From an uncultured Latescibacterota bacterium (lineage in GTDB: Bacteria > Latescibacterota > UBA2968): 64,000 bases of DNA. The notes beneath the pieces are model-generated. The model was given only the letters and a program-made list of their open reading frames with translations, had not been told where the DNA came from and did not search any database. The stretch covers positions 4,962,896 to 5,026,895 of the forward strand of contig OY282377.1 of NCBI GenBank assembly GCA_958295785.1. Reading direction: 5' to 3'. Below, in pieces: positions 10,076 to 58,278 of the stretch. The stretch's first letter is position 1. Each line of letters starts with the position of its first letter. Made by a program: the position numbers and the translations under genes.

Positions 10076-10290
10076 CCTTTCCCCTTCCGTGTCCGAATCC
10101 CGTTTCGCATGCATCATCGGTCTTGGCGTGGCGGCGTTGTTTTGATTCCGCGCTCGTGTTCTCGGATGATCCATCGCTACCCATCTCGCAATCGATGAGT
10201 GCCCATGATACTGCAACCATTGCGCCCATAGATAACCGCTTCACAGGCAACGCTGGGCATTTCGTTTGTGATAGTGCGACAAGGAGGGGC

Positions 10291-10911
10291 CTATCTCTTG
10301 GCGTACTCAAACAGAGCCGTCACATCGACAGAGAAGCCATCCAACAGCGGCGAGGTCGCTGTGTCGCCGCGGGAGAATACACCGCGTTCGACATAGATGT
10401 TCCCCCCGGCGAGGGTGAGCACGGTGATGGTCTCAAAGCGAGGATCGACGATCCAGTACTCGGGAATGCCCGCCTCGGCGTAGTCCGCGCGTTTTGTGAC
10501 GAGATCCCGTGTCGGGTCATCTGGACTGACGACCTCCACTACTAGGTCCGCACCCAACCAAAAGCGATCCCGATTCCGGGGATCCGACCGAGCGCGGAGC
10601 AGGAGGAGATCCGGCTCGCGGAACTTGCCCTTGCGGACGCGCATTCGCAATGCGGCGAACAAGACGATTCCACCGAGCGGTTTAAGGTAGGCGTCAAACA
10701 GGCCATAGAGGAAACCGATGATGGCTTGGTGTGTGGCGGTGGGCGTGGGCTGTTCCTCGACATGGCCGTCGGTGAACTCAACCAAGCGGCGGGTTCGGTC
10801 TGTAAGCCAAAGGTATTGTTCGTCGCTCCAACAACCCTGGGGCGGCATGAGGTCGCACAAAAGGGCATCCAGCGCGTCTTGGGATGTCGTTGCGATCTTG
10901 GCTTGTGTCAT
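10291..10911 (-). CDS. Uma2 family (DUF820) putative restriction-endonuclease-fold protein
   Basis: A 206-residue Uma2 family protein with a PD-(D/E)XK-like core: REPDLLLL, LVVEVVSPDD, the D-x2-K/Y segment TRDLVTKRADYAEAG and IPEYWIVDP. Uma2 proteins are multicopy in cyanobacteria and related lineages and are predicted nucleases without proven function. It follows the giant secreted-protein gene by about 50 bp on the same strand, but a functional link is not evident. Confidence 0.85.
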   Translation of the reverse strand: MTQAKIATTSQDALDALLCDLMPPQGCWSDEQYLWLTDRTRRLVEFTDGHVEEQPTPTATHQAIIGFLYGLFDAYLKPLGGIVLFAALRMRVRKGKFREPDLLLLRARSDPRNRDRFWLGADLVVEVVSPDDPTRDLVTKRADYAEAGIPEYWIVDPRFETITVLTLAGGNIYVERGVFSRGDTATSPLLDGFSVDVTALFEYAKR

Positions 10912-10961
10912 GGCGTCGTCCTCAACTTTGAGACAGTGGATAGGAGGCAGACCCGCCCCGT

Positions 10962-16900: not shown

Positions 16901-18212
16901 TGTCCACCGCGGTTATCGTTGCGGTGTCCGAACTGTTTGCCGTATTTCCCGCTGCTATCGTGATCGTTGCGTCCGATCCCACCGTGTAGAACCCCGATGC
17001 CGGTGTCACGGTGATCGTCGTGGCCTGGCTCGATGGATTGCTCAATGTGGCCGTCACATTCGTCGTGCCGCCATTTTCTGAAATCGACGCGGACGCCACC
17101 GCCAAGGTCACCGTCGGTTCATCGTCGTCATCGGGGATCGTCAGCGTCACATTGTCCGGGGGTACGATGCCGACGGTGTTCTCCGCCGTTCCCAAAACCG
17201 TGAAGGTCTTGTCCGGCGCATCGGTGGAGTTATCGACCGCCGTTATCGTCACTGTGCCCGTGCTCGTCGTCGCACTCGCCGCGATGGTCAGCGTCGTCGT
17301 GCTGGACAGCATGACGTCGCCCGCCACAGCAGGCGACACCGGCGTCGCCGATACTGTGACCGTCGTCGCCACGCTTGAAGCCTTGTGCAAAGTCGCAGTG
17401 ACCGTTGTTACATTGCTCGTGCCACTCTCACTAATTGACGTGGACGTCAGAGCCAACGATACCTTGGGGTGAGTGATCGGAATCCACTCGGCATAAAGGT
17501 TGTTGTCAGTGATCATGTTATTACCTACGCCTATGACAATCACAATGCCGCCATTGTTAACCATCGCCTGCGTGAGCGTAATCGCCGGGGGTTGCCCACC
17601 GGTACTGTGAGTCGTGCAGGTGCCCGCACGAGCGGCCCGATAGCTGGTGCCCTGGGCCAATGTAGTGCTGATGCATGCGTAGGTATGGGTGTTAATCCAG
17701 CCGAAAAGGGTATTAGCCGTGAACGACAGCGTCTGTGCGGATGTTGTCTGGGGATCCAGTGATGTCGTCAGGACATCCCAGTCATTGCTAGAGGGGGTAT
17801 TAGGGTTACGCCAAGAATCTCCCGGATTCAGGGTCATCTGCGCCAGCACCGGCGTGCCGCCAAGGGCCGTCAGCGCGAAGGTCAGCACGGCGATTATCGG
17901 GCGAAGGCAGGCGGCTAACCTCTTGTTGTTTAGCGCGTTACGGCGATCCTGCGTCGTGGGGGGGGGGGGGGGACATGGACCATTAGAGCAATTTGCATGG
18001 GGAAACCTCCTCGAAAGAAACGACAATCGGGCGCGTGCATCATCGGCGATACGGCCTTGGTTCAACACAGGCGAAAGGGGCCATGTGCCTACATTTTCGT
18101 TGGCGGCGCGATCCGGGCGTGCCTTCAGCGCCTCAAGGACGGGCGACAGCACGCGCCATATCCACCTCGAGTTGAGCGCGTGGGCAATTGTGCGATTGAA
18201 CAGTTTGATCAT
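10962..18212 (-). CDS. Giant secreted repeat protein: Calx-beta-like repeats, FN3, He_PIG-like domains, dockerin
   Basis: A 2416-residue extracellular protein. ATG 18212 has a strong AAGGAG 8 nt upstream. Order: an unusual ~98-residue leader containing a proline run (residues 81-85) from a C15 tract; a signal-peptide-like hydrophobic segment (about 99-120) ending at VLAQ; a ~120-residue unique domain; 15 repeats of about 115 residues from about 249, each running from TVTLxLS through ATLNHPSSQATT to TITDDD; an FN3-like domain (about 12000-12240); three cadherin/He_PIG-like domains with GLTFD and EISGTPLE; and a C-terminal type I dockerin with two Ca-binding loops (DFNGDGQVNF, DLDSDGAIGF). It probably acts as an adhesin or matrix protein; the dockerin suggests cohesin docking or Ca-stabilised anchoring. 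No enzyme domain is visible. It lies 64 bp downstream of a PhyH gene. Confidence 0.85.
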   Translation of the reverse strand: MIKLFNRTIAHALNSRWIWRVLSPVLEALKARPDRAANENVGTWPLSPVLNQGRIADDARARLSFLSRRFPHANCSNGPCPPPPPTTQDRRNALNNKRLAACLRPIIAVLTFALTALGGTPVLAQMTLNPGDSWRNPNTPSSNDWDVLTTSLDPQTTSAQTLSFTANTLFGWINTHTYACISTTLAQGTSYRAARAGTCTTHSTGGQPPAITLTQAMVNNGGIVIVIGVGNNMITDNNLYAEWIPITHPKVSLALTSTSISESGTSNVTTVTATLHKASSVATTVTVSATPVSPAVAGDVMLSSTTTLTIAASATTSTGTVTITAVDNSTDAPDKTFTVLGTAENTVGIVPPDNVTLTIPDDDDEPTVTLAVASASISENGGTTNVTATLSNPSSQATTITVTPASGFYTVGSDATITIAAGNTANSSDTATITAVDNTKDEPDRTGTVTATASNSQGVGTVTGVGLTLTDNEAAPTVTLALSASSIAENSGTTTVTATLSHPSSQATAITVAATPVSPAVAGDFSLSSATLTVAAGSTTSTGTVTITAVDNATDAPDKSVTVSATAANSQGVGTVTSANLTITDNDAAPTVTLVLSASSIAENSGTTTVTATLNHPSSQATAITVAATPVSPAVAGDFSLSSATLTVTAGSTTSTGTVTITAVNNDTDAPNKSVTVSATVANSHGIAGNPSNKTLTITDDDTAPTVTLVLSTSTINESGTSNVSTVTATLNHPSSQATTITVAATAGANTAASDFSLSSTTLTIAASATTSTGTVTITAVNNTRDEPNKSVTVSATVANSHGIESNVSNETLAITDDDAAPTVTLVLSPSTITESGTSNASTVTATLNHPSSQATTITVSATAVAPAIAGDFSLSTTTTLTIAASATTSTGTVTITAVNNTTDAPNKTVTVSATAANGQGIAGNPSDETLTITDDDAAPTVTLVLSPSTITESGASNASTVTATLNHPSSQATTITVAAAAGANAVSGDFSLSTTTTLTIAASATTSTGTVTITAVNNTEDEPAKTVTVSATAVNDQGITNPSNKSLTITDDDAQPTVTLALSTSSISENGGTTTVTATLSNPSSQATTITVTPASGFYTVGSDATITIAAGNTSTSSDTATINAVNNTKDEPDRTGTVTATANNSHGVGTVTGAGLTLTDDDDAPTVTLALSPASILENGGMTTVTATLSHPSSQATAITVAATPVSPAVAGDFSLSNTTTLTVAAGSTTSTGTVTITAVDNATDAPNKTVTVSATAANTQGVGTVTSVTLTLTDNEVAPTATLALSPSTINESGTSNASTVTATLNHPSSQATTITVSAAAVSPAVAGDFSLSNTTTLTIAAGSTTSTGTVTITAVDNTADAPNKSVTVSATAANSHGIAGNPSNKTLTIADDEGDPTVMLALSASSISENGGSTTVTATLNHPSSQATTITVAATAVAPAIAGDFSLSTTTTLTIAASATTSTGTVTITAVNNATDAPNKSVTVSATAANSQGIAGNPSDETLEITDDDAAPTVTLVLSPSTINESGTSNASTVTATLNHPSSQATTITVAATAVAPAIAGDFELSNTTTLTIAASATTSTGTVTITAVNNATDAPNKTVTVSATAANSQGIAGNPSDETLTITDDDAAPTVTLALSPSTINEGGASNASTVTATLNHPSSQATTITVATAAGANTVPGDFSLSSTTTLTIAASATTSTGTVTITAVDNAVDDPDNAVTVSATAVNDQGITNPSSVTLAIRDDEGPPLVTLVLTPATIDESGVGNATTVTATLNRTSTMATTITVSALPGTGATADDFTLSDNKVLTVAAGSTTSTGTVTIAAVNNATDAPDKEVTVSAAAVNDQGVTAPLDITLTITDDEGPPTAILVLTPATINESGQEGQNTATTVTAALNYASSAATMVTVSATPGLGAVADDFALSANAVLTIAAGETASTGIVTITAVDNQLNESDKEVTVSAEATNSQGVTNPANVTLMIIDDDGPPDLTGVEVSPQVQALTVSWHAVIGAHGYKVQWKMASQEFSSDRQKTVGGDVTQTQITALIAYAPYTVRVIATRNNADYSLPSDPVTETPSDEDTTPVFIEEVGPATYRQGVVISPLTLPEAVGGNGTLTYALTPDLPDGLNFDGETREISGTPLEAIGETEYSLTATDGDGDAETLTFTLAVAADRMASFGDTQRIAQVYVQNQKIEALTLPAATGGDGTLTYALTSDLPKGLTFDDETREISGTPLEAIGETEYTLTVTDEDGDVETLTFTLVVMADLMPTFGDTTVAAQRYRIGTEVNAILPAATSGDSTLVYILLPFLPDGLTFDYKTRTISGMPTRVKEETTYTLTALDADGDTASLAFLLEVQRPSSDFNGDGQVNFVDFVTFASKYGTRRGEDGYDARYDLDSDGAIGFGDFLIFITHFGTAG
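12245..17468 (-). repeat. 15 tandem ~345-bp coding repeats (Calx-beta-like)
   Basis: Within the giant gene about 15 units of roughly 345 bp are joined head to tail. DNA identity is high: the stretch encoding ATLNHPSSQATT, read on the plus strand as TGGCTCGATGGATGG and flanks, recurs almost unchanged in most units. That points to recent expansion or homogenisation. The outermost units (before 12900 and after 17050) are the most divergent. The repeats make long antisense open frames that are not genes. Confidence 0.85.
17958..17972. repeat. 15-base G/C homopolymer inside the leader of the giant protein
   Basis: Fifteen consecutive G on the plus strand (C on the coding strand) encode five prolines between the translation start and the signal-peptide-like segment of the giant repeat protein. 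At 15 bases the reading frame is intact; gain or loss of one base would disconnect the start codon from the signal peptide and the 2300 residues that follow. Confidence 0.9.
18070..18112. repeat. Dispersed-repeat copy inside the giant-protein leader
   Basis: The plus-strand phrase GGGGCCATGTGCCTACATTT followed by TCG closely matches the intergenic copy near 44800, GGGGCCAGGTCCCTACATTT followed by TCG. In both places the minus strand can be read as the peptide ENVGTWP. The N-terminal leader therefore seems partly built from an inserted dispersed repeat. Confidence 0.6.
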
Positions 18213-18276
18213 CGTTGGTCTCCTTTTGGTGAAAGAACGAATCAGCGGAACGGGGTACAACTGCATAGCCGTTTCT

Positions 18277-19068
18277 CTAAGGTTTGAGATGTTCGCCGGG
18301 AAGGCGCGAGCCGGGGTAGTTTCGATTTGGGTCGCGCTGGGCAATGGCTTCGGGAATATCCCCATCCCAATAGTCTGGCACATCGGTGGTCGCGCGCCTG
18401 TGCCATGCCAGAATGAGGGTTCTGCGCTCGTCCGTGTAATTTCTGCCAGCCGAATGCAGGACGCGGGCATCGCCCAAAATTAGCGCGCGAGCGGCCACGG
18501 GCACATGGACTTGATCGGGATGGTCGCTGAACATGATCGGATGATCTTCTTCGACGAATCGAGCGCCTTGTTCATGCGCGGGTACGAGTTGATCGTGTAG
18601 CGGAACGCGCTTGAGATGCGTGCCGGGGATGACTTTCAAACAGCCGTTTTCAACCGCGGTATCGGTCAGGTAGTCGTTCAGGAATACGATCTGCGGCCAG
18701 GGCGAGCAACTGATGGGATCGTTCCACTGCATCCAGTCCTGGTGCCAGTAGAGGGGCGGCCCTTTGGGTTCTTTGGTGAGGATGATGATGCCGCCACTGG
18801 TTTTGAAATCTCCAAAGCCCAGTTGTTCGAGTGCCCGCCGCGACGGCGCCCAGTCCAGCAGTTTTTGGATGATCGCATTGTCTTCCCCTCGCACATTGAT
18901 GTGCTGACCTTGGTATTTGAAATCTTCGGGCGGGTCGTGATCCGCGATCAACCGCTCGGATTCCTCGCGCAATTCCCCGATGAACTCGTCCGTCAAAATA
19001 TGGTCAATGACGCAGTAGCCATCTCGGAGCATATTTTCCCGCGTTTTCAGGGCCGTTTCAGGTGTCAT
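18277..19068 (-). CDS. Phytanoyl-CoA dioxygenase (PhyH) family protein
   Basis: A 263-residue Fe(II)/2-oxoglutarate dioxygenase of the PhyH family. H109-x-D111 in YWHQDW, the distal H205 in VLHSAG and R215/R216 in DERR form the expected iron and co-substrate sites, with ENGCLKVIPGTH before the distal His. ATG 19068 has a GGAGAAC-type Shine-Dalgarno. It lies downstream of two small conserved genes and directly upstream of the giant secreted protein. The substrate is unknown. Confidence 0.9.
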   Translation of the reverse strand: MTPETALKTRENMLRDGYCVIDHILTDEFIGELREESERLIADHDPPEDFKYQGQHINVRGEDNAIIQKLLDWAPSRRALEQLGFGDFKTSGGIIILTKEPKGPPLYWHQDWMQWNDPISCSPWPQIVFLNDYLTDTAVENGCLKVIPGTHLKRVPLHDQLVPAHEQGARFVEEDHPIMFSDHPDQVHVPVAARALILGDARVLHSAGRNYTDERRTLILAWHRRATTDVPDYWDGDIPEAIAQRDPNRNYPGSRLPGEHLKP

Positions 19069-26702: not shown

Positions 26703-27802
26703 CTATATGGCAAAAGCGAGAGAAAGTTGTTGTGGTTCCAATAGACGCTTCGTCGGTTCGGCCTCTGTACGAGCAGGGCTTACAAAGCCTCCACGTCCGT
26801 TTTGTGACTCGGCAGAACTTGCCGCGTCATACTGCCCATACTGCCCATACTGCGCTAAGTTTCGTGCCGCATTCAAATCCCGGTCAAGCACAAGACCGCA
26901 ATCCATACACACATACTCGCGTTCCGACAAGTCCATAGCGACTTTCTTCTGTCCACAATCCGAGCAGGTCTTTGTGCTTGCAAACCACCGATCCGCTTTC
27001 TCAAAAACGACACCATTCCACGCGCACTTGTATGCCAGCATCCGCAAGAATCCAGAAAGACCTGCCCGGTGAAACGCACGAGACAAATGCTTATTCCGAC
27101 GTAAGCCTGCGACATTCAGCGACTCGACAATCACACGACCAACGTGCTTCGCGCTTCCCAACGCGGATGTGGCCTTGTGGTGAACATCGTCACGAATGTT
27201 CGCGATACGCCCATAAATACGTTGTCTCTCGTCATACTTCTTTTGCCTGCGCTTACTGGTGTTTGTCTTGCCGTGAACCTTCTTTGAGCGAGAAATGCTT
27301 TTATCCACACGTCGCAACTTACGATACTGATGATCCATTGACGCCTTCGGATTCTCAACCGTCGTCCCATCGGAATACACCGCCAGCGTTTTCAATCCCA
27401 TATCAATCCCTATCGTCTCGCCGTCACGCTTGTCGGGCGGCTCCTCGCCCGTCTCAACCGTCAAGCATACAAACCAACGACCATGCGTCTTCGTCACCGT
27501 CGCTTGAACAATCTCACCCTCAAATCGCATACACTCACGCATCTTCACCCATTGGATCTTCGGCAAATACACCGCATTCCCGCACACCTTCACCGTACCT
27601 TTCCCGTTATCCGCTTGATACTTCTGACCGTATTGGCGTTTGTGCTTTCTCGGCTTTTTCGCCTGCAACTTCTTGAGCCAGTTCTTAATCGCACGATCCA
27701 GATTGTGTATCGCGTTCTTAGATGCGTTCTGACTCAACTCGGCACACCACTTATACTCGTCTTTTTTTACCGCATTAAACTCACGCTTCAGCGTATAGAC
27801 TT
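26703..27802 (-). pseudogene. tnpB: TnpB (IS605/IS607-type RuvC nuclease), 3' part of a split gene
   Basis: The main part of a TnpB, the RNA-guided nuclease ancestral to Cas12. The RuvC triad is visible: D in GIDMGLKTLAVY, E in VIVESLNVAGLR, D in DRDLNAARN. A CxxC...CxxC zinc ribbon (CSDCG, CMDCG) lies between the last two. The frame is cut at 27802 by a repeat element; upstream codons still read VYTLKREFNAVKKDEYKW before a stop inside the repeat. The missing 5' part lies at 31766-31904. Joining the two gives 1239 bp, an intact 412-codon frame. A truncated product from an internal TTG near 27737 is possible. Confidence 0.9.
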
Positions 27803-29560: not shown

Positions 29561-30652
29561 TAGGACTTACGCATGCTGAGTTAAAAAAGGGTGCAATTCC
29601 GTAAAATTTATCACTTTGAGGAGGTATCAATGCGCCAACCGACGCGTTTGGATTACTGTCAGTATCTGCTTAGCAGTCCCCTCAACTATACGCTGACCCA
29701 TTTCGCCGACCATAGCGAAGGGTTCAGTCATGATATGATCAACCGCTATCTCGCCGGTGATCGTATCCCACCCCGCTTGGTGTGGGAACACGTCAAAGAC
29801 CACATCGCGCTGACGCCTGAAGGCTATGTGATCTTTGATGACACGGTTTTAGACAAGCGACACGCACGCAAGATCGCGTTAGTGCGCCGTCAATATAGCG
29901 GCAACGCCCAAGGCGTCATCAATGGCATCGGGGTGGTCACATGTGTCTATGTCAATCCGCAACAGGATCGGTTCTGGTTGATTGACTATCGGATTTATGA
30001 CCCGCAAGGCGATGGCAAAACCAAATGGGATCATCTCAAGGACATGCTCTCTGCGTTGGTCTATCAGAAGCGCCTCCCTTTTACCGGGGTCTTGATGGAC
30101 AGTTGGTATGCGACCAAAACGGTCATGCGACACAGAGAGCAGATGCAAAAAACCTATTATTGTCCCCTCAAGACGAACCGGCGCGTGGACGAGTAGGCAG
30201 GCACAATCCCCTACCAGCGCGTAGATAGCTTAACTTGGACGAAAGCGCAACGCAAACAAGGCAAGTCCATTAAAATCAGAGGGTTTCCCAAAGACCACAA
30301 AGTGAAATTATTCCGGGGGGCGTCTGCTGATAGACGCACGGCGTATGTCGTGACTAACGACCATGCTCAAAACGATTCTTCAGTGGTACAACAGGTGTGT
30401 CACCAACGATGGAAAATTGAGCCATTTCACCGCGAAGTCAAACAGGTAACCGGGCTTGAAAAGTGTCCATGTCGGTTGGCACGCATGGTACGAAATCATA
30501 TTGGGTGTGCGATGTTCGTTTGGATTCGACTCGCGCAGGTGGCCTATCAAACAGGACAAACCATTTATCAAGTCAAATACCGGGGGGTGGCTGACTTCTT
30601 GAGACAACAACTCAAAGCACCTCATATTCCAATGGGGATTGCGTAAGTCCTA
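29561..30652 (+). mobile_element. IS701-family insertion sequence
   Basis: A 1092-bp element with terminal inverted repeats TAGGACTTACGCA / TGCGTAAGTCCTA. It carries one transposase gene broken by an amber codon. No target duplication is obvious (left flank ends TACAGA, right flank starts ATTGAG). Its right end supplies the TAG that terminates the truncated CARF gene on the minus strand. Confidence 0.85.
29630..30646 (+). pseudogene. IS701-family DDE transposase interrupted by an in-frame TAG
   Basis: The product starts MRQPTRLDYCQYLLSS and matches the IS701 transposase pattern: VIFDDTVLDKRHARK (first Asp, about 70-71), VLMDSWYATKT (second Asp, 157) and the Glu of QRWKIEPFHREVKQ. Codon 189 (30194-30196) is TAG, where relatives have an ordinary residue (often Ser) before the PYQRVDSL stretch. 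Reading resumes in the same frame to TAA at about 30646, total about 338 codons. An AGGAGG Shine-Dalgarno precedes ATG 29630. Only the amber separates this from an intact gene. Confidence 0.85.
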
Positions 30653-47956: not shown

Positions 47957-47991
47957 ATCCCGTCTCTTTTGCGTCAAGAGAGACGGGGATT
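47957..47991 (-). terminator. Possible stem-loop between the DpdA operon and tgt
   Basis: ATCCCGTCTCT pairs with AGAGACGGGGAT around an 11-base loop. On the minus strand it is followed by GTTATATT rather than a clean T-run, so it may be a weak terminator or a processing hairpin separating the five-gene operon from tgt. Confidence 0.4.
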
Positions 47992-48032
47992 TGCAGGATG
48001 AAAGGCATCTGTCAATTTAGCTGACTTCGTGC

Positions 48033-49214
48033 TCAGGGTGCAGTCGGAGCCTTAATTTTGTAATCCGCCGGAACGCCAGCGGGCCTTGGACAAAAGTGTC
48101 GGAAATCGCAAGCGACGCATGTCGCTTCGTCTTGGCAATTCGGAGCCCAAGCCTGAAGAATATTGCGATCAGTCGCTTCTGCCACGACATCTTCCTCTAC
48201 TTGACGGACAACATCATCAAAAGATGCGAGGGCATGATCAATGCTCTTTGGAGAGATCTGAATAACCCGAATGGCCCTACGCAGACGAAAAGCGAGTGAT
48301 AGTTGACTTGTATCCATGCCCTCTCGCCACATTCTGACAATCTGATCATCTTGCGAGCCAGTATCGGGCATCATATCAGTTGAGCCATGAGACAAGCCAC
48401 GCCGAAGTGCTTGCATCTCCGTTACGCCAGGCGTCAACTCATTTATGTAGATTAGGATTCCGGCTACAACCCGAAGGGCATCGGGTTGCCGTTCTCTCAG
48501 CCAGGCGTATGTTTGAATTTGCCAGTCGCCCTGCTCCCAATAAGGTTCATCGGTCAGGGGGCGTCTTGCGCCTTTGTAATCTACGATAACCTCGAATGTT
48601 TCTGGAAGGTTTGGGCAAACTTGCAGAACACATTGGCGAATAAGATTGTCGTCAGAGGCTTTCGAAAGAGTTACATGAGTCAAGACATCGATAACGCCGT
48701 GTACTTCATAGTTGTCACAGCGAAGTTCCTTTCCACTAGGTGGCACAGGTCTTGTTCCAATTACTTTGCGCTCTGTAGAAGCAATGAGCGGGAATAAGTG
48801 CGGTCCGAGTTCGTTCACCGCGACCTCAACGCGACGATATGCCGAGTCTCGAGCGGCGGTACTGCGAGCCTGCTTGCCCTGTTGTCGAAGAGCATTCTCC
48901 ACTATGTCGGCAAATTTACCAATGTCGTGAGCCTTCCAGTTTGGAGAATTTTGCCGCCATTCGCGTTGTGTGCATGGCCAAGGGAAATTAGGTGGCTGTT
49001 GGCCTTTTTGACGCAACTCATCCCAAAAGCGATAGGCCATTTCCAAGGTGCCATGCAGAAATTCGCCGAACCAAAGCTGAACGGGTCTAGATGGCGGCAG
49101 GGCACTGCCATTGTGGTATCGATACTGTAGCCGACAACGCAGATAGGATAGCAGGTCACCTGTGAGCGAATAGGATGGAACGATATGTTCCGGACGTTTG
49201 ATTTCGAGTTCCAT
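48033..49214 (-). CDS. Cas4/AddB-like PD-(D/E)XK nuclease with cysteine cluster
   Basis: A 393-residue RecB-family nuclease. It has the family motif G50-x3-H54-x3-E58 (GEFLHGTLE), D176 in GVIDVL, D212-Y-K214 in VDYKG and Q232-x-Q-x-Y236. One cysteine near the N-terminus (C27) and a C-terminal set C360, C366, C369, C375 match the split iron-sulfur ligand layout of Cas4 and AddB. ATG 49214 follows a GGAGATA that is tandemly duplicated (TTGGAGATATAAC twice at 49215-49240). It is the last gene of the operon and probably works with the UvrD-like helicase 14 bp upstream, as in AddAB-type machines. Known in kind; its role in this set is inferred. Confidence 0.85.
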   Translation of the reverse strand: MELEIKRPEHIVPSYSLTGDLLSYLRCRLQYRYHNGSALPPSRPVQLWFGEFLHGTLEMAYRFWDELRQKGQQPPNFPWPCTQREWRQNSPNWKAHDIGKFADIVENALRQQGKQARSTAARDSAYRRVEVAVNELGPHLFPLIASTERKVIGTRPVPPSGKELRCDNYEVHGVIDVLTHVTLSKASDDNLIRQCVLQVCPNLPETFEVIVDYKGARRPLTDEPYWEQGDWQIQTYAWLRERQPDALRVVAGILIYINELTPGVTEMQALRRGLSHGSTDMMPDTGSQDDQIVRMWREGMDTSQLSLAFRLRRAIRVIQISPKSIDHALASFDDVVRQVEEDVVAEATDRNILQAWAPNCQDEATCVACDFRHFCPRPAGVPADYKIKAPTAP

Positions 49215-49228
49215 GTTATATCTCCAAG

Positions 49229-51601
49229 TTATATCTCCAAAAACGGCGGTTCTACTTTTACTGGAGGCTTGCGAGTACTGTAACTTTGTCTCCAAGGCCA
49301 AGTCTCGTCGCGATGCCAACCCAAGGCTATATTCGGAATCGCCTTTTGGGTATGGTTTTTTCCGGTTCCATAGAGCAAACAACTCTCGTTTCCTACGAGC
49401 ATCAGAACGGACTGTGGGCGGCTATAGGCGACATAGTAGAGTCGCACCAAGTCGTCAAATGTACGATCCAATGGTTTACGGGCACTCCGAAGTGGAGCAA
49501 TTAGATGAGGTTCTACGTCATTTTCAGCTTGCACGACGTTCGAAATGCGATTCGGGAATCTCAAGAATCGTTGCATCGGATGATTGCGCGTGAAGCGACT
49601 TCCAACATCAACGATCACCAACGGGAACTCCAAGCCCTTTGCTTGATGGATTGTCATAAGTTGCAATTGATCACGCGGAACACTCGGCATAATGTCTTCA
49701 TCAACATCAACTTCGTTCTCTGCAATTGGTATAAGTGCGTCACGAACCAAGCTCAATCTGCTTAAACGTACATGGTCGCCATTATTAGCCGTGTTTTGTA
49801 GAAGGTGCATACCATAAGGAGAGGCCATACCTGCGCTCGCAATGATGCGCGTAATGGCCTCTAGCCATACTTGGTGCTCGGGATTACGCTGAAATTTAGG
49901 TATCCAAGAGATCAACTTAAAGACGAGTTCCAAAACTGGCCAGTCTTGAGGAAAAGCATCTCTCGCCTGCCCCGACGCCGCATCTTGCCAGTCCTTAATG
50001 AATCCACCGATTCCTTGTCCATCTCTCGGGGAAGGGTTTGAATCAACAAATTGCTGAGCACATTGTCTCCATTGCTCAAGGAAGAACCTCGCCTCTCGCG
50101 TAGGCATTACGTCATTGATGATCGTATTTTCTGGATCAACTGAGAGAAGGACGAGACCTAAGAGAACGCGCACATCGGGAATGGTTCGCAGAGCTTGACC
50201 GCGTGGATTGAAAATTTGGAGACCATTATCTTTCATTCTGTCTCGAAGCATGCCCGGAAATCGCTCTTGTGGTACACCGTTGTACTGATTGTAACTCATC
50301 TCCTCAATAGAGTGAGATAGAAATACCACATCACCTAAGGCACCGCCTTGAGCTATCCGAATTTCCCGACCTGCATCAATAGGAACTCTTTGCTGATTAA
50401 CCAGCGTATTCAGAAATGTTGCCAGATCTGTTGCGAGGCTCTTTAGATCGGCCCTAAACATACCTAATACAGGAATATATCCGCTTATGCTAGTTGACGC
50501 CACCAAAGGCTTTGAAGGCTTGATCCGTGCAGGTAAGAAATTTGTATCGCTCTTAATGTAATCGTTGTAGAACTGCACAATTTCCGGCCTTGACCGGAAA
50601 TTCCTAGTCATGTCCACTCGACGGGTCTGACGTCCTGTTTTTTGCTGACAACGCCCGGCAAACTCAGTAAAGAGTTCGACCGAGCCGCCCCGGAATCTGT
50701 ACATGGACTGGTCGTCGTCTCCAACAATGGTCATTGACAGACGGGCCATATTAAGCATAAAAAAATAAATGGCTTCCTGTAGCGGGTTTGTGTCTTGATA
50801 TTCGTCTATCAAAACCACTTGTAATCCTTCAAGCCATTTCTCAAGCGATCCATTGGACAAGCGTTGCAGAAATAGCTCCTCTAAAATTGTAAAGTCAAAG
50901 ATGTTTGTTTTAACAACTTGCTGGCGATAACGTCTCAGCATATCGACAAACAATTTTTGGGCTTGTCCAGATCGTGCGTAAATGTTCAAGTCCACCTGAT
51001 CTTGTATCAAACGTTCAAGCAAGCGTTTCGTCTCTTTTAGCGCAACTCCCCGATTGCGAGGAGACTTGCCATCGAAGGTGTACCGGCGCAAAAGGGTATC
51101 AAGGATGTCTTGATTGGATTCGTACAAATCTCGAAATGCTGACCTCTTCAAAATTAGGTTACTTGCGGAAGTTTCTGCGACTACGGGCGCGAGTGCTCCC
51201 GGCAATCGGTACTCTGTCAGTGCCTGTTGGATAATACTATCCAACGTGTCAATTCTGCATCGGTTGAGGTCAATTTGCGCGAGGTTAACAGCAGGATCAG
51301 ACTCGAGTTCTGTACAAAGGGCAGTACCCCAGTCCAGCCAGCGCGTGCGTAATTCACGGGCAGCTTTTCGAGTGAATGTAGTAATCAGAATGTTTTCGGG
51401 CAGAACATCTTCCACAAAAACAAACCGTAAGGCGCGAAGCACAAGCACGGTAGTCTTTCCCGAACCTGGGCCAGCAACAATTTGCAGAACGCGATCATCT
51501 GCATGGTTGACAGCTTTGAATTGAGCCAAGTTATCCGGATCTTTCAGGGCACGCCCAAGGCGATAGCGAACCATATCGAGAAAACGATCATTGCTAATCA
51601 T
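49229..51601 (-). CDS. UvrD/PcrA-type SF1A DNA helicase
   Basis: A 790-residue helicase. Motifs in order: Q-type LAQFKAV, Walker A AGPGSGKTT (43-51), Ia ITTFTRKAARELR, II VLIDEYQDTNP, III IVGDDDQSMYRFRGG, IV/V LMTIHQAKGLEFPLVIV and VI YYVAYSRPQSVL. ATG 51601 with AAAGGATG upstream is preferred to ATG 51676, which overlaps the herA end. It lacks a fused nuclease; the PD-(D/E)XK protein encoded next could supply it. It probably unwinds DNA 3'-5' within the DpdA-NurA-HerA cassette. Confidence 0.92.
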   Translation of the reverse strand: MISNDRFLDMVRYRLGRALKDPDNLAQFKAVNHADDRVLQIVAGPGSGKTTVLVLRALRFVFVEDVLPENILITTFTRKAARELRTRWLDWGTALCTELESDPAVNLAQIDLNRCRIDTLDSIIQQALTEYRLPGALAPVVAETSASNLILKRSAFRDLYESNQDILDTLLRRYTFDGKSPRNRGVALKETKRLLERLIQDQVDLNIYARSGQAQKLFVDMLRRYRQQVVKTNIFDFTILEELFLQRLSNGSLEKWLEGLQVVLIDEYQDTNPLQEAIYFFMLNMARLSMTIVGDDDQSMYRFRGGSVELFTEFAGRCQQKTGRQTRRVDMTRNFRSRPEIVQFYNDYIKSDTNFLPARIKPSKPLVASTSISGYIPVLGMFRADLKSLATDLATFLNTLVNQQRVPIDAGREIRIAQGGALGDVVFLSHSIEEMSYNQYNGVPQERFPGMLRDRMKDNGLQIFNPRGQALRTIPDVRVLLGLVLLSVDPENTIINDVMPTREARFFLEQWRQCAQQFVDSNPSPRDGQGIGGFIKDWQDAASGQARDAFPQDWPVLELVFKLISWIPKFQRNPEHQVWLEAITRIIASAGMASPYGMHLLQNTANNGDHVRLSRLSLVRDALIPIAENEVDVDEDIMPSVPRDQLQLMTIHQAKGLEFPLVIVDVGSRFTRNHPMQRFLRFPNRISNVVQAENDVEPHLIAPLRSARKPLDRTFDDLVRLYYVAYSRPQSVLMLVGNESCLLYGTGKNHTQKAIPNIALGWHRDETWPWRQSYSTRKPPVKVEPPFLEI

Positions 51602-51662
51602 AAAACATCCTTTAGCGTTTCGTACAAACAATAGGAGCGGATTGAGTTCATTGCTCTTTCCA

Positions 51663-53483
51663 TTAGGCGTTTCCATACTTTGCCTCTAAGAAGGAAACTA
51701 TGCGACCATTTGCATCTTCAGTCTTCACGGGTAGGGGAACTGCCTCAAGACCTGTCGCATCATGACTGACCAGAAGCCACTGTCCTTTCACAAACTTAAA
51801 TGTTTGATTCAACATCTCATCGCCGAAGCCAAAAGCCTCAGAAACGGCTGTGCGGTCGCTGGCTCTCGGCAACTTCGAGATGAAGTAGGTGTGCGGTTGG
51901 GACATGATGTTGGTATCGAGATAGCGAATCCGCTGGGTTGCTATGCCGAGACCAATTCCAAATTTTCTTCCGCGCCGCGCAATTGTCTCTGCAATCTCGG
52001 CGGAGTTTGCATAGCTACCAGTACCCCTCGCACGGATAAATTCGTCGGCCTCGTCAAATATGAAGCCAACGACCGGATCAATAACGCCGTTAAGTCTCCG
52101 GCTCTCATATAGTTCATTTCCAAGATTGTGCGAAAAATCTCTAAGTTCGCTGGGGTTATGAGATTGGACTATCCAGAGAGAATGACGAGTGCTATCATTT
52201 AGATCGTCTATGATTTCAGGCAACGTCATACTCGCAGCCAAATGTTCGGCTGTTGACCGTTCGAGTTCTTCGAGTTTGGAAAGATGATTGGCATAGTCCT
52301 CTTGAAACTCGGCATGTTTCGGTTGTCCAAGTAGTTTCTGCAATTTCTCCCTGATCTGCTTCGCCAAGTCAGGGGTAAAACGCGCTTTTTTGTAGTCTCC
52401 GATTTTGGATTCCCGCAATACCATCTTGGCCAACTCTCTCCGATTTGTAGTCTTTGTTTGCCGCCTATCCTTTGCCCAACGAACCATATCATCGGAAAAG
52501 AAGAGATCGTAAACGGTTATGCTTTTCGATTCGTTGAAATAGCATATTTTTTGATTTTTGATAAAATCGAGAAGAGCCCATGCCATTTTCTTTCTCTGTC
52601 CCTGAAGGGCTTTGGGAAGAAGGGTAGCGCGTAAGAGTTGCTTTGTGGCCTCAGTATCTTTCGGTGCCCCATTTAGAGCGTTAATATACCTGAACGTTCC
52701 TTCGGGCAAGGTATTTCTGCCAAGCGTGAGCAGACGCCCTTCGACATGCTCTGAAAGAAGTTGATCGATGAGCAGAGCAGTATATTCGCTCATCATATCG
52801 AAAAATACCAACTTGACTGGCTCTTGGGTCGATTCATAAATTTTTGCTACTATCGTCGACAAAAGATTAGACTTGCCCACACCGGTAAAACCGAAAATAG
52901 CAAAATGAGTGCGGAGCAACTCGTCAATACGCATCAGAATTTCGACATCTGGATCGCGGGCGAGCGTTCCAATCACAGCGAGGTTCTTCTCCTCTTTTTT
53001 ATCGATTCCATTATTGGCAATCAGGTTTGTAGTTTCACTGTCGAGCACGCGAACTCTCGACCCGACCATTGCCATGTTTGTCTCAGGCCCAATTTCAAGA
53101 GACGTATCAGTGTATGATTCCGGTTCCATGATTTCCAAAAGTGTTGGAATCGCCGTAGCTTCAATCTTTGTCGTTTCCTCTGTGGCCTCTTTGTCCTGGG
53201 ATTCCCAATCTTGCGCCGCGCTGCGAGTAGCTTCAACAACAAACCCCGGATAACCCGAGTTTCCACTTTGCAACGCAAAATGTGAAGGCATAATGCCCGT
53301 GACTTCCAGCACGGACCAACGGCGAGTCTTATCATCTGAACCGAAGTTCGCAACTGCCAGCATTGTCCCTTCCTGAATTGCATTTATCGCTTCGCGCGTG
53401 TAATCAAACCAGATGGTGTACCGGAATCGCGTATCGGGCGAGTCCTGCATTGACATCAAAGTGCCCTCAAGTTTCTGAAACAT
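51663..53483 (-). CDS. HerA-like FtsK/HerA-superfamily DNA translocase
   Basis: A 606-residue HerA/VirB4-clade ATPase. The N-terminus resembles a HAS-barrel, followed by NLAVIGTLARDPDVEIL and Walker A GFTGVGKS (198-205). Walker B is VVGFIFDEADEFI, and the arginine-finger and sensor region is ETIARRGRKFGIGLGIATQR. An insertion of about 150 residues lies between them. ATG 53483 with AAGGAGG is 2 nt after the NurA-like stop. In archaea HerA forms a hexamer on NurA to resect DNA ends; in bacteria HerA proteins are often in anti-phage systems. The partner here is the NurA-like protein just upstream. Confidence 0.88.
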   Translation of the reverse strand: MFQKLEGTLMSMQDSPDTRFRYTIWFDYTREAINAIQEGTMLAVANFGSDDKTRRWSVLEVTGIMPSHFALQSGNSGYPGFVVEATRSAAQDWESQDKEATEETTKIEATAIPTLLEIMEPESYTDTSLEIGPETNMAMVGSRVRVLDSETTNLIANNGIDKKEEKNLAVIGTLARDPDVEILMRIDELLRTHFAIFGFTGVGKSNLLSTIVAKIYESTQEPVKLVFFDMMSEYTALLIDQLLSEHVEGRLLTLGRNTLPEGTFRYINALNGAPKDTEATKQLLRATLLPKALQGQRKKMAWALLDFIKNQKICYFNESKSITVYDLFFSDDMVRWAKDRRQTKTTNRRELAKMVLRESKIGDYKKARFTPDLAKQIREKLQKLLGQPKHAEFQEDYANHLSKLEELERSTAEHLAASMTLPEIIDDLNDSTRHSLWIVQSHNPSELRDFSHNLGNELYESRRLNGVIDPVVGFIFDEADEFIRARGTGSYANSAEIAETIARRGRKFGIGLGIATQRIRYLDTNIMSQPHTYFISKLPRASDRTAVSEAFGFGDEMLNQTFKFVKGQWLLVSHDATGLEAVPLPVKTEDANGRIVSFLEAKYGNA

Positions 53484-53485
53484 GA

Positions 53486-55312
53486 TCACCTCCTTGCAGA
53501 GTCTCTGGTCGTTCTAAAAGTATCGCTGAGTGGATTGCTACTCAACACTATCGTCGATGAGTCAATTGTTTTGCCGACCCACCGTCCCATACTTTTGGCT
53601 CCCCAATCCGCTTTGTGTAGCGGATCTGGATAGCCAATGGCCTCGGCAAAGTGATTTTTGGTTAAGACGGATAATAAATACATCATTACAGTCTGTCCAC
53701 GGTTGATGTGTTTAGAATCTCGCCAAGCGAATGGCTCGATACGACCCAATGCGTTTGTCTCGATTGAAATTGATTCAGGTGAAGTCTCTGAACCAAAGGA
53801 ATCGAAAAAGGGTTGTAAGAGCCTTTCTATGAAAACGACATGGCCCATGAGCGGATTCTTTTTCGCACGACTCAAAAAGAACTGTCCCAGCGATTTCATA
53901 AAAAGACGCTCCTGATTCGCAATTCGTCCCATTACGCCTCCGACTTGGGTTTTGCCCGTCTTATCATCGCGCTCGCGGTGGAGTGTCATAAATGCCGAAT
54001 CGAACTCAATCGTTGCCCATGGAGCCTCGAGATGAGAATCAAAACGCGGCAACGCCTCACAGAGCATTCGGTCCGTCCACGGAAGCACATTGACCGTTAG
54101 GTTGCGAAGTTGGGGATGAAACCCCGTCTCCAGCGTTACGCCAAAATAATTGCGTCCAAAATAACGAGACGCGGAATCTTTTATGATTCCATATAACAGA
54201 ACTTTGCGTTCCCAACTTACCTCTATGAGCATACGCATCCCAACATCTACAAGAAAGTTCAAATCATTGGAAGACATCCACTGCCTTCGTAAGACGCCCA
54301 AGTCATCTATGGCCTCGTATTGAAGTGCAGTAGGGTCTTTTTGAAGGAAAAGCCGCTTACAGATATTTTGAAAGAAATCCTTTGTGTAGTCCCAAGATTC
54401 ACGAACATTTACCAAAGGAACTCCTCTCTCGTCTAAAACTCCGCGTCTGACTAGCCAGTCAAGTGCTCTTTTGAGACTGGCAATTTCCACACCATAGATT
54501 TGAGCAATGGCGTTGAGGTTCACCCGTTGTATAGGCTCTTTTAAGAGAGAAGCAATAATTGTCCTAGGGCGATCTATGTTCTTACTTGAAGGTATTCCGA
54601 ATATATCGTTCACGGGTTGGGCATAAGCGACTGCTATGTCTGCTTTTGTCAAACTTCTGCGGTCATAAGGATAGCCCACCAAACCGACCTTATCTTGAGC
54701 TTGGGCAACATTTGCGAGAACGGATGAGGGCGACAAATCCATCAACACGAGATGGGGCGCGTCCAGAGCAGATGATGTGATGGTATTGATCGCCAAGAAA
54801 ATCTCAGCCAGTTGCATAATTTGGGTATGGACACTCGCCACGTTAGCCTCTTCCTCATTCGTCGCCAAGAATTGCTCCCCCTGTGGCTGGAGTTCTTCAA
54901 GTCTTGCAAACGGCACGGGAATCCAAGCGACCATGGAAACATCCTGTTCAAGACTCCAACGCTTGTAGTGAACTTTATGATCGCCAGCATCCAACTCGAG
55001 TTCTCCGCGTGCGCCATAAGCTCCCCCAAAGAAAGTGAGCATATCGGAGAATTGCTCGCGCCTACATGTGCCATCTATCGCAATGAACTGGAGCCGACGA
55101 GTCCCCAAAACACGTTCTATATCTTCCTGTAGTCGGTCTCGGCCTCGCTGCGACGAGAATCGGTTGCGAAACTGGACGATCTGAGTTGAGAGAAACTGTC
55201 CATAAAATTCTTCGGCGGCCGCGAGTCGTTCTGAGACGAGTTCGTTATATTGATCTCGTCCAACATTTAAGGCATCTCGGTAAGCCGTGCTGATCTCAGA
55301 TACTCTGGACAT
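53486..55312 (-). CDS. NurA-domain nuclease (608 aa)
   Basis: A 608-residue protein with a NurA-type RNase-H-like fold: FIAIDGTCRREQFSDMLTFF has the first catalytic Asp (D80), GGAYGARGEL follows as in NurA, and HLVLMDLSPSSVL looks like the second acidic strand. A middle helical region (residues about 260-330, with RVNLNAIAQIYGVEIASLKR and ALDWLVRRGVLDERG) looks like a winged-helix insertion. It is about twice the size of archaeal NurA. ATG 55312 overlaps the DpdA-like gene by 17 nt and has AGGAGG 6 nt upstream, and its stop lies 2 nt before herA. Pairing with HerA supports the NurA call. Confidence 0.75.
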   Translation of the reverse strand: MSRVSEISTAYRDALNVGRDQYNELVSERLAAAEEFYGQFLSTQIVQFRNRFSSQRGRDRLQEDIERVLGTRRLQFIAIDGTCRREQFSDMLTFFGGAYGARGELELDAGDHKVHYKRWSLEQDVSMVAWIPVPFARLEELQPQGEQFLATNEEEANVASVHTQIMQLAEIFLAINTITSSALDAPHLVLMDLSPSSVLANVAQAQDKVGLVGYPYDRRSLTKADIAVAYAQPVNDIFGIPSSKNIDRPRTIIASLLKEPIQRVNLNAIAQIYGVEIASLKRALDWLVRRGVLDERGVPLVNVRESWDYTKDFFQNICKRLFLQKDPTALQYEAIDDLGVLRRQWMSSNDLNFLVDVGMRMLIEVSWERKVLLYGIIKDSASRYFGRNYFGVTLETGFHPQLRNLTVNVLPWTDRMLCEALPRFDSHLEAPWATIEFDSAFMTLHRERDDKTGKTQVGGVMGRIANQERLFMKSLGQFFLSRAKKNPLMGHVVFIERLLQPFFDSFGSETSPESISIETNALGRIEPFAWRDSKHINRGQTVMMYLLSVLTKNHFAEAIGYPDPLHKADWGAKSMGRWVGKTIDSSTIVLSSNPLSDTFRTTRDSARR

Positions 55313-57023
55313 TTCTACCCTCCTGGATATTCCCATACAGCATGAGTGTGTTGTGTGCTCCTCGCCTCCTATTTCGATTGGCCCCACGAAAGATGAGGAT
55401 ATGGATGCCGAGACTTTGGCAAAAGGGGCAGTCGCAATTTCGCCAAGGGCGTTCCTCTAGTGTCCTACGGTATTGTGCATGCATGGCCTGCATTTCGCTG
55501 GACCTCACTAAATGCTGGTCATAACTTACAACGGCCTCAAGGACTTCATTGACAGGGACTTCATCTCGGTCATATCGGCATAACAGGTTCAAAACTTTGC
55601 GTTCCTCTTGCTCCAATTGAGAGATGTTCTCAGATGTCGCTATCAGTCGCTTGCGCGTGCGTCCATCACTTGTCATCGGCACCCGCAATGCCGCGTACCA
55701 CTTGCCATTGGCACCGAGGTAATTTTGATTGGAACGGAGCCACGCTTTTCGGAAATACGTCGCGCTGTCAAAGCTGTCAATCTTGAGTTTTTGAAACAAA
55801 TCTTGAAGTTTGGGGCGAAAGATGCCAAAGAGATGTATCCAAGGACGTTCCTTGAGTTCGTTGGCAGCAGTCATCACGGCTCGCGCAATGCTTTCAATCT
55901 CGTTATCTCGCTTGGGAACAAGGCCCCCGAGTGCCAAGTGGCGATACCCGAGGTCATAATAGTCGTGGACAAATTGAGCATACTGCTCCGGATTTCGTGC
56001 TTGAATAGTGCCCACCGGATTAAACTGTGCCTTTCGTTTTTTAGCCGCCTCTATGAACTGCTCCGCATTTTCACGAGTTATGTCCACTCTATCTTGACGT
56101 TCCTCATCGGAAAGAACCCTTGGTTCTCCGTTCTTGTTGATTTTTTGAACTGGAATGTGATCAACCGACGCCCCAAAGTTGAAGCCATATAACTCGTATA
56201 GCGCGACCGCCTGATCCACACTTATAGTCGGCTCATCCTCGTTCACGTAGCTGAAGGCACCACAATCGCCAAATAGCCACTGATGATCCATAAGACCAAA
56301 CTGTTTGCGTAGCGGCAGAGGAGACAGGGCACCTGCTTCCGTACCTTCTAATCTACGCAAAGGGCCTTTCGATGTTCCCTGCTGAGCGAGGCTGACGAGG
56401 ATACCGTCGCACATTTTTTTTGGTTGCATCAAAATGCAACAGTGTTTATCCCCTCTTTCTTCACGAGTCTTTCCCGAGAAAGTGTCTTGCTCAAAATTGA
56501 ACTTCGGATCCAGAAGGTCATCCCAATCCGGAAGAAAATAGCGTCGTCTCTCAGTGCCGCCTTCAACTTCGGCCCTTATACGCTGATCGGGCGAGGTGCG
56601 ATTGAGAAAAGTCTTGATTTGACGCATTTTCTCCCCAATGCCGCCTTGAATTTGTTTAAACGGTATGGATAAAGAAGATAGTGTGGGCTGAAGGGCGGGA
56701 AGATAGTTCTTTCCCAACGACAGATATACAGCATTGTGATAATCAGCCCACTTTTTTAGAATGACAGAACACTCAGTCGCTTTTGCTCTAGCTGTCGTTG
56801 GGGTCATCCGAGAGTCGTAGTCCTCAATGCCCTTCAGACTTCCAAACAAACCGTATTCCGCAGAGAGGATCGCAATAGACAAGTCAGATGGCCATTGATG
56901 GTCTCGCAGGAACTTTTTGATGACCCGATAATGAGACCCCTCATAACGGTCAAGTGCAGGAAGCAGTCCCTTGCAATCTCGTTTGGTCTGAGAACAACCG
57001 AGAATGAGTAACTGTTTATTCAT
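55296..57023 (-). CDS. DpdA/TgtA5-like DNA 7-deazaguanine transglycosylase with DUF6884-like N-terminus
   Basis: A 575-residue transglycosylase paralogue. Residues 1-140 look like DUF6884 (LLILGCSQTKRD; SAEYGLFGSLKGIEDYD). The TGT barrel follows. Aligned by eye to the housekeeping Tgt at 46746: D253 in FGDCGAFSY (TDSGGF), D288 in ASVDHIP (VFDECTP), Q341 in GTIQARNPEQY, G366-G367 in LALGGLVP, nucleophile-position D419 in DSFDSATYF (DMFDCVMPT), and a zinc set C530-x-C532-x2-C535...H557. DpdA proteins insert 7-deazaguanines (preQ0 derivatives) into DNA. It is the first gene of the NurA-HerA-UvrD-nuclease operon. No preQ0 synthesis genes are in the window. tRNA as substrate cannot be excluded. 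Confidence 0.8.
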   Translation of the reverse strand: MNKQLLILGCSQTKRDCKGLLPALDRYEGSHYRVIKKFLRDHQWPSDLSIAILSAEYGLFGSLKGIEDYDSRMTPTTARAKATECSVILKKWADYHNAVYLSLGKNYLPALQPTLSSLSIPFKQIQGGIGEKMRQIKTFLNRTSPDQRIRAEVEGGTERRRYFLPDWDDLLDPKFNFEQDTFSGKTREERGDKHCCILMQPKKMCDGILVSLAQQGTSKGPLRRLEGTEAGALSPLPLRKQFGLMDHQWLFGDCGAFSYVNEDEPTISVDQAVALYELYGFNFGASVDHIPVQKINKNGEPRVLSDEERQDRVDITRENAEQFIEAAKKRKAQFNPVGTIQARNPEQYAQFVHDYYDLGYRHLALGGLVPKRDNEIESIARAVMTAANELKERPWIHLFGIFRPKLQDLFQKLKIDSFDSATYFRKAWLRSNQNYLGANGKWYAALRVPMTSDGRTRKRLIATSENISQLEQEERKVLNLLCRYDRDEVPVNEVLEAVVSYDQHLVRSSEMQAMHAQYRRTLEERPWRNCDCPFCQSLGIHILIFRGANRNRRRGAHNTLMLYGNIQEGRNVQSI

Positions 57024-57096
57024 AATTTTTATCTTTCAAGAAATCCAAGAAGACTAGTCAAAAAAAGCAAGGGGTTTGACGTATGCCTTATGCCCC

Positions 57097-58278
57097 TCAT
57101 TTCACGGCCTCTTCGGCGAGAACGAATGTAAAACCCTGTTCCTCCAATGCGGGCAACACGCGCTGGAGTGCTTTTAGGGTTTCGCGTTTTGCGTGTCCAA
57201 TGCCAATTGCCGCGCCTTCCTGCCGTGCGCGTGCAGCGAGTGCGTACAGCCGCTTGACGATTGCGTCCTCGTCATCTATGAGATCCAAAAACAAGGCCCC
57301 GTGGCCGCTGGGGATGCCCATTTCCTGCGCGATGGCGTAGGCCGCGGATTGGGGGGACGTCATGCTATCGACAAAAAAGAAATCGCGCTGTTTTACAACT
57401 TGCAACACGACTTTCATGGCGTCTGCATTTTGCGTTAGCCGCGACCCCAGGTGGTTGTTCATCCCCCGCGCATGGGGCACGGCGGCCAGGGCGTTTTGGG
57501 TCAATTCGGCGATTTTTTGGGGCGCATCATCTGAAAAGATCGCATTGGGGCCCGGATCGCGCTCGGGATAGCCTATCGGCTCCATCGGCAAATGCACCAT
57601 CACCCCGTGGTTTTTCTCTATCGCCTGTTGCGCGGTCCAAGCCGTGTGCCTCTCGCCGGGAAAGATCGAAAGCGTAATCGGTTGCGGCAGGTCGCAGAAA
57701 GACTGGATCAACTTTTGATCTTGGTAGCCAAAATCGTCGATCACAATGGCAATGCGCCCCGCGGTTCGCTCGCGTTCTGCATTGTGCTCAAGCGCGATCA
57801 AATGGGTGGGTTTGCCATTTAAGCCCACGTAGAGCGACAACACATTGCCCGACCGATTTTCGCTGCCCTCGAGTACTGCCCCGCCCAATTGATGGGCCAA
57901 GCGGGTCAAAGACAGATTGCACACAGACAGGGGCAAAACACTTGGCACGTCTGCCCGGATATTCCAGCGCAAGGAGTCGATTTCAGATTCGGGCAACCGC
58001 GCCACTTGAATGACTTCGCGGGGAATGCCCAAGCCAATCAACACCGCTTTTGCCCGTGCGGTCATGGTATCGGCAAATGCGTCGACATCTTCGGGTCCCG
58101 CTTTCCATTGGGGTGTCTCGTCTGCCAAAGGCGGGACATACTGCCGAGAGGGCGGTTGCCAAAAATAGGCGACCAATCCGCCGGCGAGCAGCGCGACACA
58201 GGGCACAATCCACAAGAGCATGGATCGCTTCTCGCGCGCCATTTTTCGCGTTTTTTTGGGTGATGAACGCTTCGCCAT
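57097..58278 (-). CDS. Divergent polysaccharide deacetylase family protein
   Basis: A 393-residue protein with a basic N-terminus and one membrane helix (SMLLWIVPCVALLAGGLVAYF), then a periplasmic region. The C-terminal domain (from RIAIVIDDFGYQ) is the divergent polysaccharide deacetylase (YibQ type): LSIFPGERHTAW, GVMVHLPMEPIGYP, GMNNHLGSRLTQN and FFVDSMTS. These proteins are often encoded beside envelope proteases or EnvC; here an M50 protease gene lies 9 bp upstream. The catalytic activity of the family is uncertain. Confidence 0.88.
   Translation of the reverse strand: MAKRSSPKKTRKMAREKRSMLLWIVPCVALLAGGLVAYFWQPPSRQYVPPLADETPQWKAGPEDVDAFADTMTARAKAVLIGLGIPREVIQVARLPESEIDSLRWNIRADVPSVLPLSVCNLSLTRLAHQLGGAVLEGSENRSGNVLSLYVGLNGKPTHLIALEHNAERERTAGRIAIVIDDFGYQDQKLIQSFCDLPQPITLSIFPGERHTAWTAQQAIEKNHGVMVHLPMEPIGYPERDPGPNAIFSDDAPQKIAELTQNALAAVPHARGMNNHLGSRLTQNADAMKVVLQVVKQRDFFFVDSMTSPQSAAYAIAQEMGIPSGHGALFLDLIDDEDAIVKRLYALAARARQEGAAIGIGHAKRETLKALQRVLPALEEQGFTFVLAEEAVK

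Follow-up and report, generated by a model that had tools for sequence, protein, structure and literature searches.

A candidate Dpd-type self-marking system with a predicted helicase-nuclease restriction arm, acquired as a five-gene block by a Latescibacterota bacterium

Five minus-strand genes at positions 48033-57023 of a 64,000-nucleotide stretch of DNA from an uncultured Latescibacterota bacterium (assembly GCA_958295785.1, contig OY282377.1, positions 4,962,896 to 5,026,895; hereafter the window) probably constitute a horizontally transferred self-marking system of the Dpd type, equipped with a helicase-nuclease restriction arm. At the sequence level, the analysis documents the gene families, the conservation of their catalytic residues, transfer of the block as a single unit, purifying selection and a recurrent linkage between the DpdA writer and a helicase-nuclease pair.

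Results

Transfer of the five genes as one block

All five open reading frames are intact. The 17-nt overlap between genes 1 and 2 and the following gaps of 2, 61 and 14 nt, obtained with internal ATG starts, were reproduced to the base from the preliminary description of this DNA when the ORFs were checked, and strong Shine-Dalgarno sequences lie upstream of genes 2 and 3. The genes are contained in a clean insertion of 9.1 kb (47979..57103, unstranded), located between tgt and a polysaccharide-deacetylase gene in a 5.66-Mb genome that consists of a single contig. These two genes lie side by side in 10/10 congeneric genomes, and only the genome carrying the window has the block at this site. 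The block has a GC content of 47.9% and its flanks one of 56%; the corresponding GC3 values are 0.45-0.50 and 0.66-0.70.

A second copy with identical five-gene order occupies a different chromosomal place in a Latescibacterota genome from another family of the same class (G046). DNA similarity between the two copies, about 79%, is restricted to 48030-57026, and the dN/dS ratios of all five gene pairs (0.07-0.15) indicate purifying selection. The block is therefore a single-unit horizontal transfer, and the earlier view of the five genes as one unit is borne out by the empty sites and by the confinement of the G046 homology to these genes. A search for marks of the insertion turned up neither terminal repeats nor a tRNA gene. 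The block stands alone amid housekeeping genes, outside any defence island, which counts against a defence reading. In the G046 copy the UvrD gene is split by a transposase gene (L004, 7933-9072), so that this copy is probably inactive, whereas the window copy is intact. Outside the block, inspection of the window by eye revealed a 2502-aa minus-strand ORF with repeated Calx-beta-like units and a dockerin-like C-terminus (10962-18470), as well as TnpB-like and other transposase-like ORFs (26703-27737 and 29591-30196).

Gene 1 as a fusion of DpdC-like and DpdA domains

Gene 1 (55296..57023, minus strand, 575 aa) encodes a predicted DNA 7-deazaguanine writer, in which a DpdC-family (DUF6884) domain (residues 4-140; 56604..57014, minus strand) precedes a DpdA transglycosylase domain (residues 161-567; 55323..56543, minus strand). 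With a score of 341.9 bits, the protein exceeded the 200-bit cut-off of the NCBIfam DpdA equivalog NF041059, and it matched both the PADLOC DpdA model (2e-97) and the solved DNA-guanine transglycosylase 7ui4 (E 9.8e-67). Residues D253, D419 and H289 and the Zn ligands C530/C532/C535/H557 are kept in 98-100% of DpdAs (n=50). In the alignment, D253 and D419 coincide with the two catalytic aspartates of TGT, and H289 may correspond to the conserved histidine mentioned in phage DpdA (PMC6884629).

The N-terminal 150 residues exceeded the cut-off of Pfam DUF6884 when scanned alone; among relatives of this domain, 26/26 matched DUF6884 and 11/26 also matched the YaaA family. Its AF2 model (pLDDT 95.6) had YaaA (DUF328) 5caj and AF0587 2q07 as its sole PDB matches with E < 0.001. 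Since true DpdC proteins of dpd clusters (PADLOC DpdC, up to 6e-142) also match Pfam DUF6884, and a published survey places dpdC under DUF6884 (PMC11888242), gene 1 is a DpdC-DpdA fusion, whose DpdC part is the short form only. This is consistent with the preliminary description, which had recognized the first gene as a TGT paralogue with a DUF6884-like N-terminus. Its remark that dpdB-dpdK are not visible in the block holds for DpdB and dpdD-K but is incomplete, because the N-terminal domain itself belongs to the DpdC family.

With a canonical tgt located 160 bp downstream, gene 1 might act on tRNA or be inactive, its neighbourhood being an accident of gene transfer. This tgt is native, however, and relatives that lack the block retain its surroundings intact. 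The preliminary description had named a grouping with tRNA-acting TGTs as grounds for refutation; in the tree, the window DpdA falls far from tRNA TGT, including the tgt next door, within a 100/100 clade of 18 fused DpdAs, every one of which is found at a locus with UvrD and nuclease genes. With intact catalytic residues, purifying selection and a linkage repeated in many phyla, this reading is highly improbable. The identification of gene 1 as a tRNA TGT was rejected mainly on the tree, the presence of the native tgt in relatives with the empty site, and purifying selection; judged by its sequence, gene 1 is a true DpdA of the DNA type.

Helicase, nuclease, HerA and probable NurA genes

Clear Pfam matches upheld the earlier identification of genes 3-5 as HerA ATPase, UvrD-type helicase and PD-(D/E)XK nuclease. 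Gene 3 (51663..53483, minus strand, 606 aa) encodes a HerA hexameric translocase ATPase (Pfam DUF87/HerA, 9.7e-18; PADLOC HerA, 2e-77), the Walker residues of which are invariant among relatives (n=17). Gene 4 (49229..51601, minus strand, 790 aa) encodes a UvrD/Rep-type SF1 helicase (Pfam UvrD-helicase, 5e-45) with helicase motif residues conserved at 99-100% (n=70 relatives). The product of gene 5 (48033..49214, minus strand, 393 aa) is a PD-(D/E)XK nuclease of the Cas4/AddB type (Pfam PDDEXK_1, 2.6e-12), in which H54, D176, D212, K214, Q232, Y236 and C27/C366/C369/C375 are 99-100% conserved (n=83 relatives), a residue and four-cysteine pattern typical of Cas4/AddB Fe-S nucleases. The five cysteines counted previously in this protein need correction: nine are present, four of which are the conserved ones. 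Genes 4 and 5 together appear to combine an SF1 helicase with a RecB-family nuclease bearing Fe-S cysteines, as expected of an AddAB-type pair.

Gene 2 (53486..55312, minus strand, 608 aa), which overlaps gene 1 and ends 2 nt before the HerA gene, probably encodes a NurA nuclease, as suggested by its motifs and by its distance to HerA. The motifs IAIDGT, VLMDLS, IIKDS and GYPDPLHKAD (D105, D217, K403, YP..L..AD) follow one another in NurA order. Approximately 145 extra residues separate motifs II and III; weak winged-helix matches fall in this stretch, which is possibly a winged helix. No significant Pfam or PDB match was obtained for gene 2, and 6-14 of 2000 shuffled sequences scored as high as gene 2 against the NurA HMM. 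Alignment with two other NurA types by hhalign gave no support, cutting out the presumed insert brought no gain, and an AF2 model built from four sequences only had a pLDDT of 31. Searches for relatives in plasmids, viral contigs, 64 phylum genomes, 22 core-carrying genomes, 85 Poribacteria and 400 Chloroflexota returned the G046 copy as the only real one; a weak match elsewhere was discounted, since it contained four stops. The previous label of NurA-like nuclease therefore fits the motif order and the HerA partnership but finds no significant counterpart among known families or structures.

A three-gene core with a recurrent NurA-HerA add-on

With the nuclease family as query, a scan of 84,980 species genomes yielded 79 loci. 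Of these, 36 were non-methanogen loci flanked by 7 kb or more on either side; in this subset, the nuclease gene was accompanied by an adjacent UvrD gene in 36/36 and by DpdA/TGT within the locus in 30/36; two of the remaining six (L043 and L055) bear dpdD/K/J homologues instead. Four arrangements were distinguished. The compact trio DpdC-DpdA > UvrD > PD-(D/E)XK (A) occurs in Nitrospira, Pelotomaculum, Dehalococcoidia, Acidimicrobiales, Planctomycetes, Thiosymbion, Desulfobacterales and others. A trio with a separate DpdC (B) includes archaea (L066), and at the archaeal locus L064 DpdA is present with no recognized DpdC gene. In Rhizobiales and Burkholderiales, the UvrD-nuclease pair is combined with DpdC-DpdB-DpdA-DpdB-Que (C), and larger clusters (D) contain NurA-HerA, a short TGT-like protein and DEAD helicases. 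The short TGT-like protein (~300 aa) and DEAD helicases were observed at L014, L049, L053, L058, L067, L070 and L076, all of which except L053 also carry a family (c26) with no Pfam or PADLOC match.

NurA and HerA were present in 9/79 loci, each time with the other three families, so that co-occurrence of all five genes in unrelated genomes, which the preliminary description had suggested as a check, was indeed found. Further cases are the window itself and a plasmid of Picosynechococcus, the latter as judged from its annotation. In Poribacteria, the order is NurA-HerA-DpdCA-UvrD-nuclease (NurA by Pfam, 1.3e-4 and 5e-4), and NurA proteins at such loci are of three sequence-unrelated types. The basic unit is DpdC-DpdA with UvrD and PD-(D/E)XK, distributed over many bacterial phyla and archaea, and NurA-HerA is a recurrent add-on. 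The notion of a compact five-gene system thus stands insofar as the five genes move together and recur, but the core comprises three genes and NurA-HerA is optional.

In the reverse search, with DpdA as the query against 392 Planctomycetota genomes, DpdA proved rare, exceeding the cut-off in 8/392. Fused DpdAs of the window class had UvrD and PD-(D/E)XK just downstream in 5/5 cases, two of these pairs being divergent; the remaining DpdAs had canonical partners or none. On plasmids with strong DpdA matches, the nuclease was present in only 3/17, indicating that the helicase-nuclease pair is one option among several. The label "fused writer" changed at least eight times on the nuclease tree, a quick tree with SH-aLRT support only, compared with two changes on the DpdA tree; the helicase-nuclease genes thus seem to have been repeatedly re-paired with different DpdA writers.

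Several related loci deserve separate mention. On a 143-kb IMG/VR "viral" contig (L094, 5589-14234), the compact trio is followed by a Type IIG restriction-modification gene, and its writer groups with the Planctomycetota versions. Two Bradyrhizobium loci (L031 and L032, ~10001-11197) hold the UvrD-nuclease pair with no DpdA nearby; their closest relative, L012, has DpdA, and these pairs are possibly orphan effectors. A YhhQ-like transporter gene (c35) is located near the helicase-nuclease genes at L018, L059 and L060; the YhhQ family has been reported as a preQ0 importer.

These neighbourhoods also bear on whether the pair attacks foreign DNA at all. The helicase and nuclease could be accessories of the writer or of repair, opening DNA for DpdA or mending the breaks and stalled forks to which the modified base gives rise; the block would then be a DNA-modification island that leaves foreign DNA alone. 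In Methanobacteriota (L072-L092), the same UvrD-nuclease pair, without DpdA, is found at a conserved position on the chromosome, close to Mre11-, Rad50- and HerA-like genes; the pair therefore also has a non-Dpd role and is perhaps an unrecognized archaeal end-processing enzyme. An operon of unfused UvrD and Cas4-like genes was likewise judged repair-like by Hudaiberdiev et al. (PMC5704561), and L047 and L071 hold the pair alongside a canonical dpdD/J/K arm. On the other hand, the pair is the sole candidate effector in compact loci, it seems to have changed its writer partner repeatedly, and it adjoins known restriction-modification genes in some loci, the defence neighbours recorded being Type III RM, Type IIG RM, dpdE/F and dpdD/J/K. 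We therefore regard an accessory role as unlikely, though worth keeping in mind, and retain the restriction arm as the preferred interpretation.

Discussion

Salmonella-type systems include DpdB as part of the writer. No match to DpdB was obtained in the whole genome, and none of dpdD-dpdK is among the five block proteins. The absence of DpdB counts against a Dpd-type reading; it is offset by the finding that in E. coli the DpdA of phage 9g inserts dPreQ0 by itself (PMC6884629), and some clusters are considered able to do without DpdB (PMC12839542). The host encodes QueC (G000:C1:4155890, 2.5e-77), consistent with a supply of preQ0.

Our inferences about the product of the modification, the protection of marked DNA, the target and the defence role are as follows. 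The DpdA domain of gene 1 would swap guanine in host DNA for preQ0 drawn from the host queuosine pathway, and the DpdC-like domain would turn the inserted preQ0 into its amide form, ADG. Unmarked DNA would be unwound and degraded from ends or nicks by an AddAB-like pair, formed by the UvrD helicase and the Fe-S PD-(D/E)XK nuclease, while in the five-gene form NurA-HerA may supply a second end-resection motor and nuclease.

The polarity of this scheme is not fixed by the sequences. Gene 1 might instead tag invading or replicating DNA for destruction by the helicase-nuclease, in a type IV-like or abortive manner; since phages carry 7-deazaguanines (PMC6884629), a system that recognizes the modified base could be of use. 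The Dpd island studied so far was reported to block unmodified DNA (PMC11888242; PMC6884629), however, and the relatives use the same writer families, which makes inverted marking a rather improbable account. ADG-linked restriction activity has been described as not further explored (PMC12707154).

On balance, we lean towards the view that these loci represent an undescribed class of Dpd immunity, with an AddAB-like helicase-nuclease in place of dpdD-K as the reader of the 7-deazaguanine mark. Such systems would be three-gene operons, present in many bacterial phyla as well as in some archaea, whose writer is a single DpdC-DpdA protein with no need of DpdB, and would have recruited NurA-HerA more than once to form a double end-resection machine. 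If this is true, it would be the smallest Dpd system known to us, with three genes instead of eleven, and base-marking immunity would become directly testable in a laboratory strain. By analogy with Chi, which controls AddAB/RecBCD, 7-deazaguanine could then also act as the gate for a processive helicase-nuclease. Some dpd islands are listed without a restriction operon, and the pair may supply the effector that they lack. Dpd-type systems would extend to further phyla and archaea, where surveys requiring dpdA plus dpdB would miss them.

Comparison with known systems

In the openly available literature, we found no published account of DpdA with UvrD and PD-(D/E)XK, or with HerA and NurA. The block resembles AddAB/RecBCD and the UvrD-Cas4 proteins (PMC5704561) in coupling an SF1 helicase to a RecB/Cas4-type nuclease with an Fe-S cysteine set. 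Unlike in UvrD-Cas4 fusions, which are also found beside Type III RM and Dcm genes, the helicase and nuclease are separate genes here and are linked to DpdA; the UvrD-Cas4 survey makes no mention of a transglycosylase (PMC5704561). The adjacent HerA and probable NurA genes recall archaeal HerA-NurA and HerA-based capture, but the pair is embedded in a DpdA operon, and three sequence-unrelated NurA-like types occur at such loci.

BREX-Related Capture (BRC) also combines a HerA/FtsK translocase with a TGT homologue; it is built on PglZ, DUF6079, a STAND NTPase and DUF4007, and its seven components include no UvrD and no Cas4-like nuclease (PMC12839542). Membership of BRC was rejected, as the block encodes none of PglZ, DUF6079, STAND NTPase and DUF4007. 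BRIGADE (PMC12458937) shares Dpd-like writer genes and a nuclease, occasionally of the PD-(D/E)XK type. It is built on YprA-family helicases and known from halophilic archaea only (PMC12458937), and the block was excluded from it for lack of a YprA helicase. For gene 4, PADLOC ranked GajB, the UvrD-like helicase of Gabija (GajAB), highest; this match reflects generic SF1 similarity, and Gabija was dismissed because the block has no GajA OLD-family nuclease.

The closest comparison is with Dpd islands, which Thiaville in 2016 and Yuan in 2018 reportedly described as dpdA-dpdK. Homologous DpdA, a DpdC-family domain, preQ0 from the Que pathway and a scattered, transferred distribution are shared. 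Unlike these islands, in which dpdD-K are the restriction genes (PMC11888242), the block has DpdC fused to DpdA and no DpdB or dpdD-K, the restriction arm being replaced by UvrD and PD-(D/E)XK, plus NurA-HerA. Given its DpdC-family domain, the block is better called a Dpd variant than a wholly separate system.
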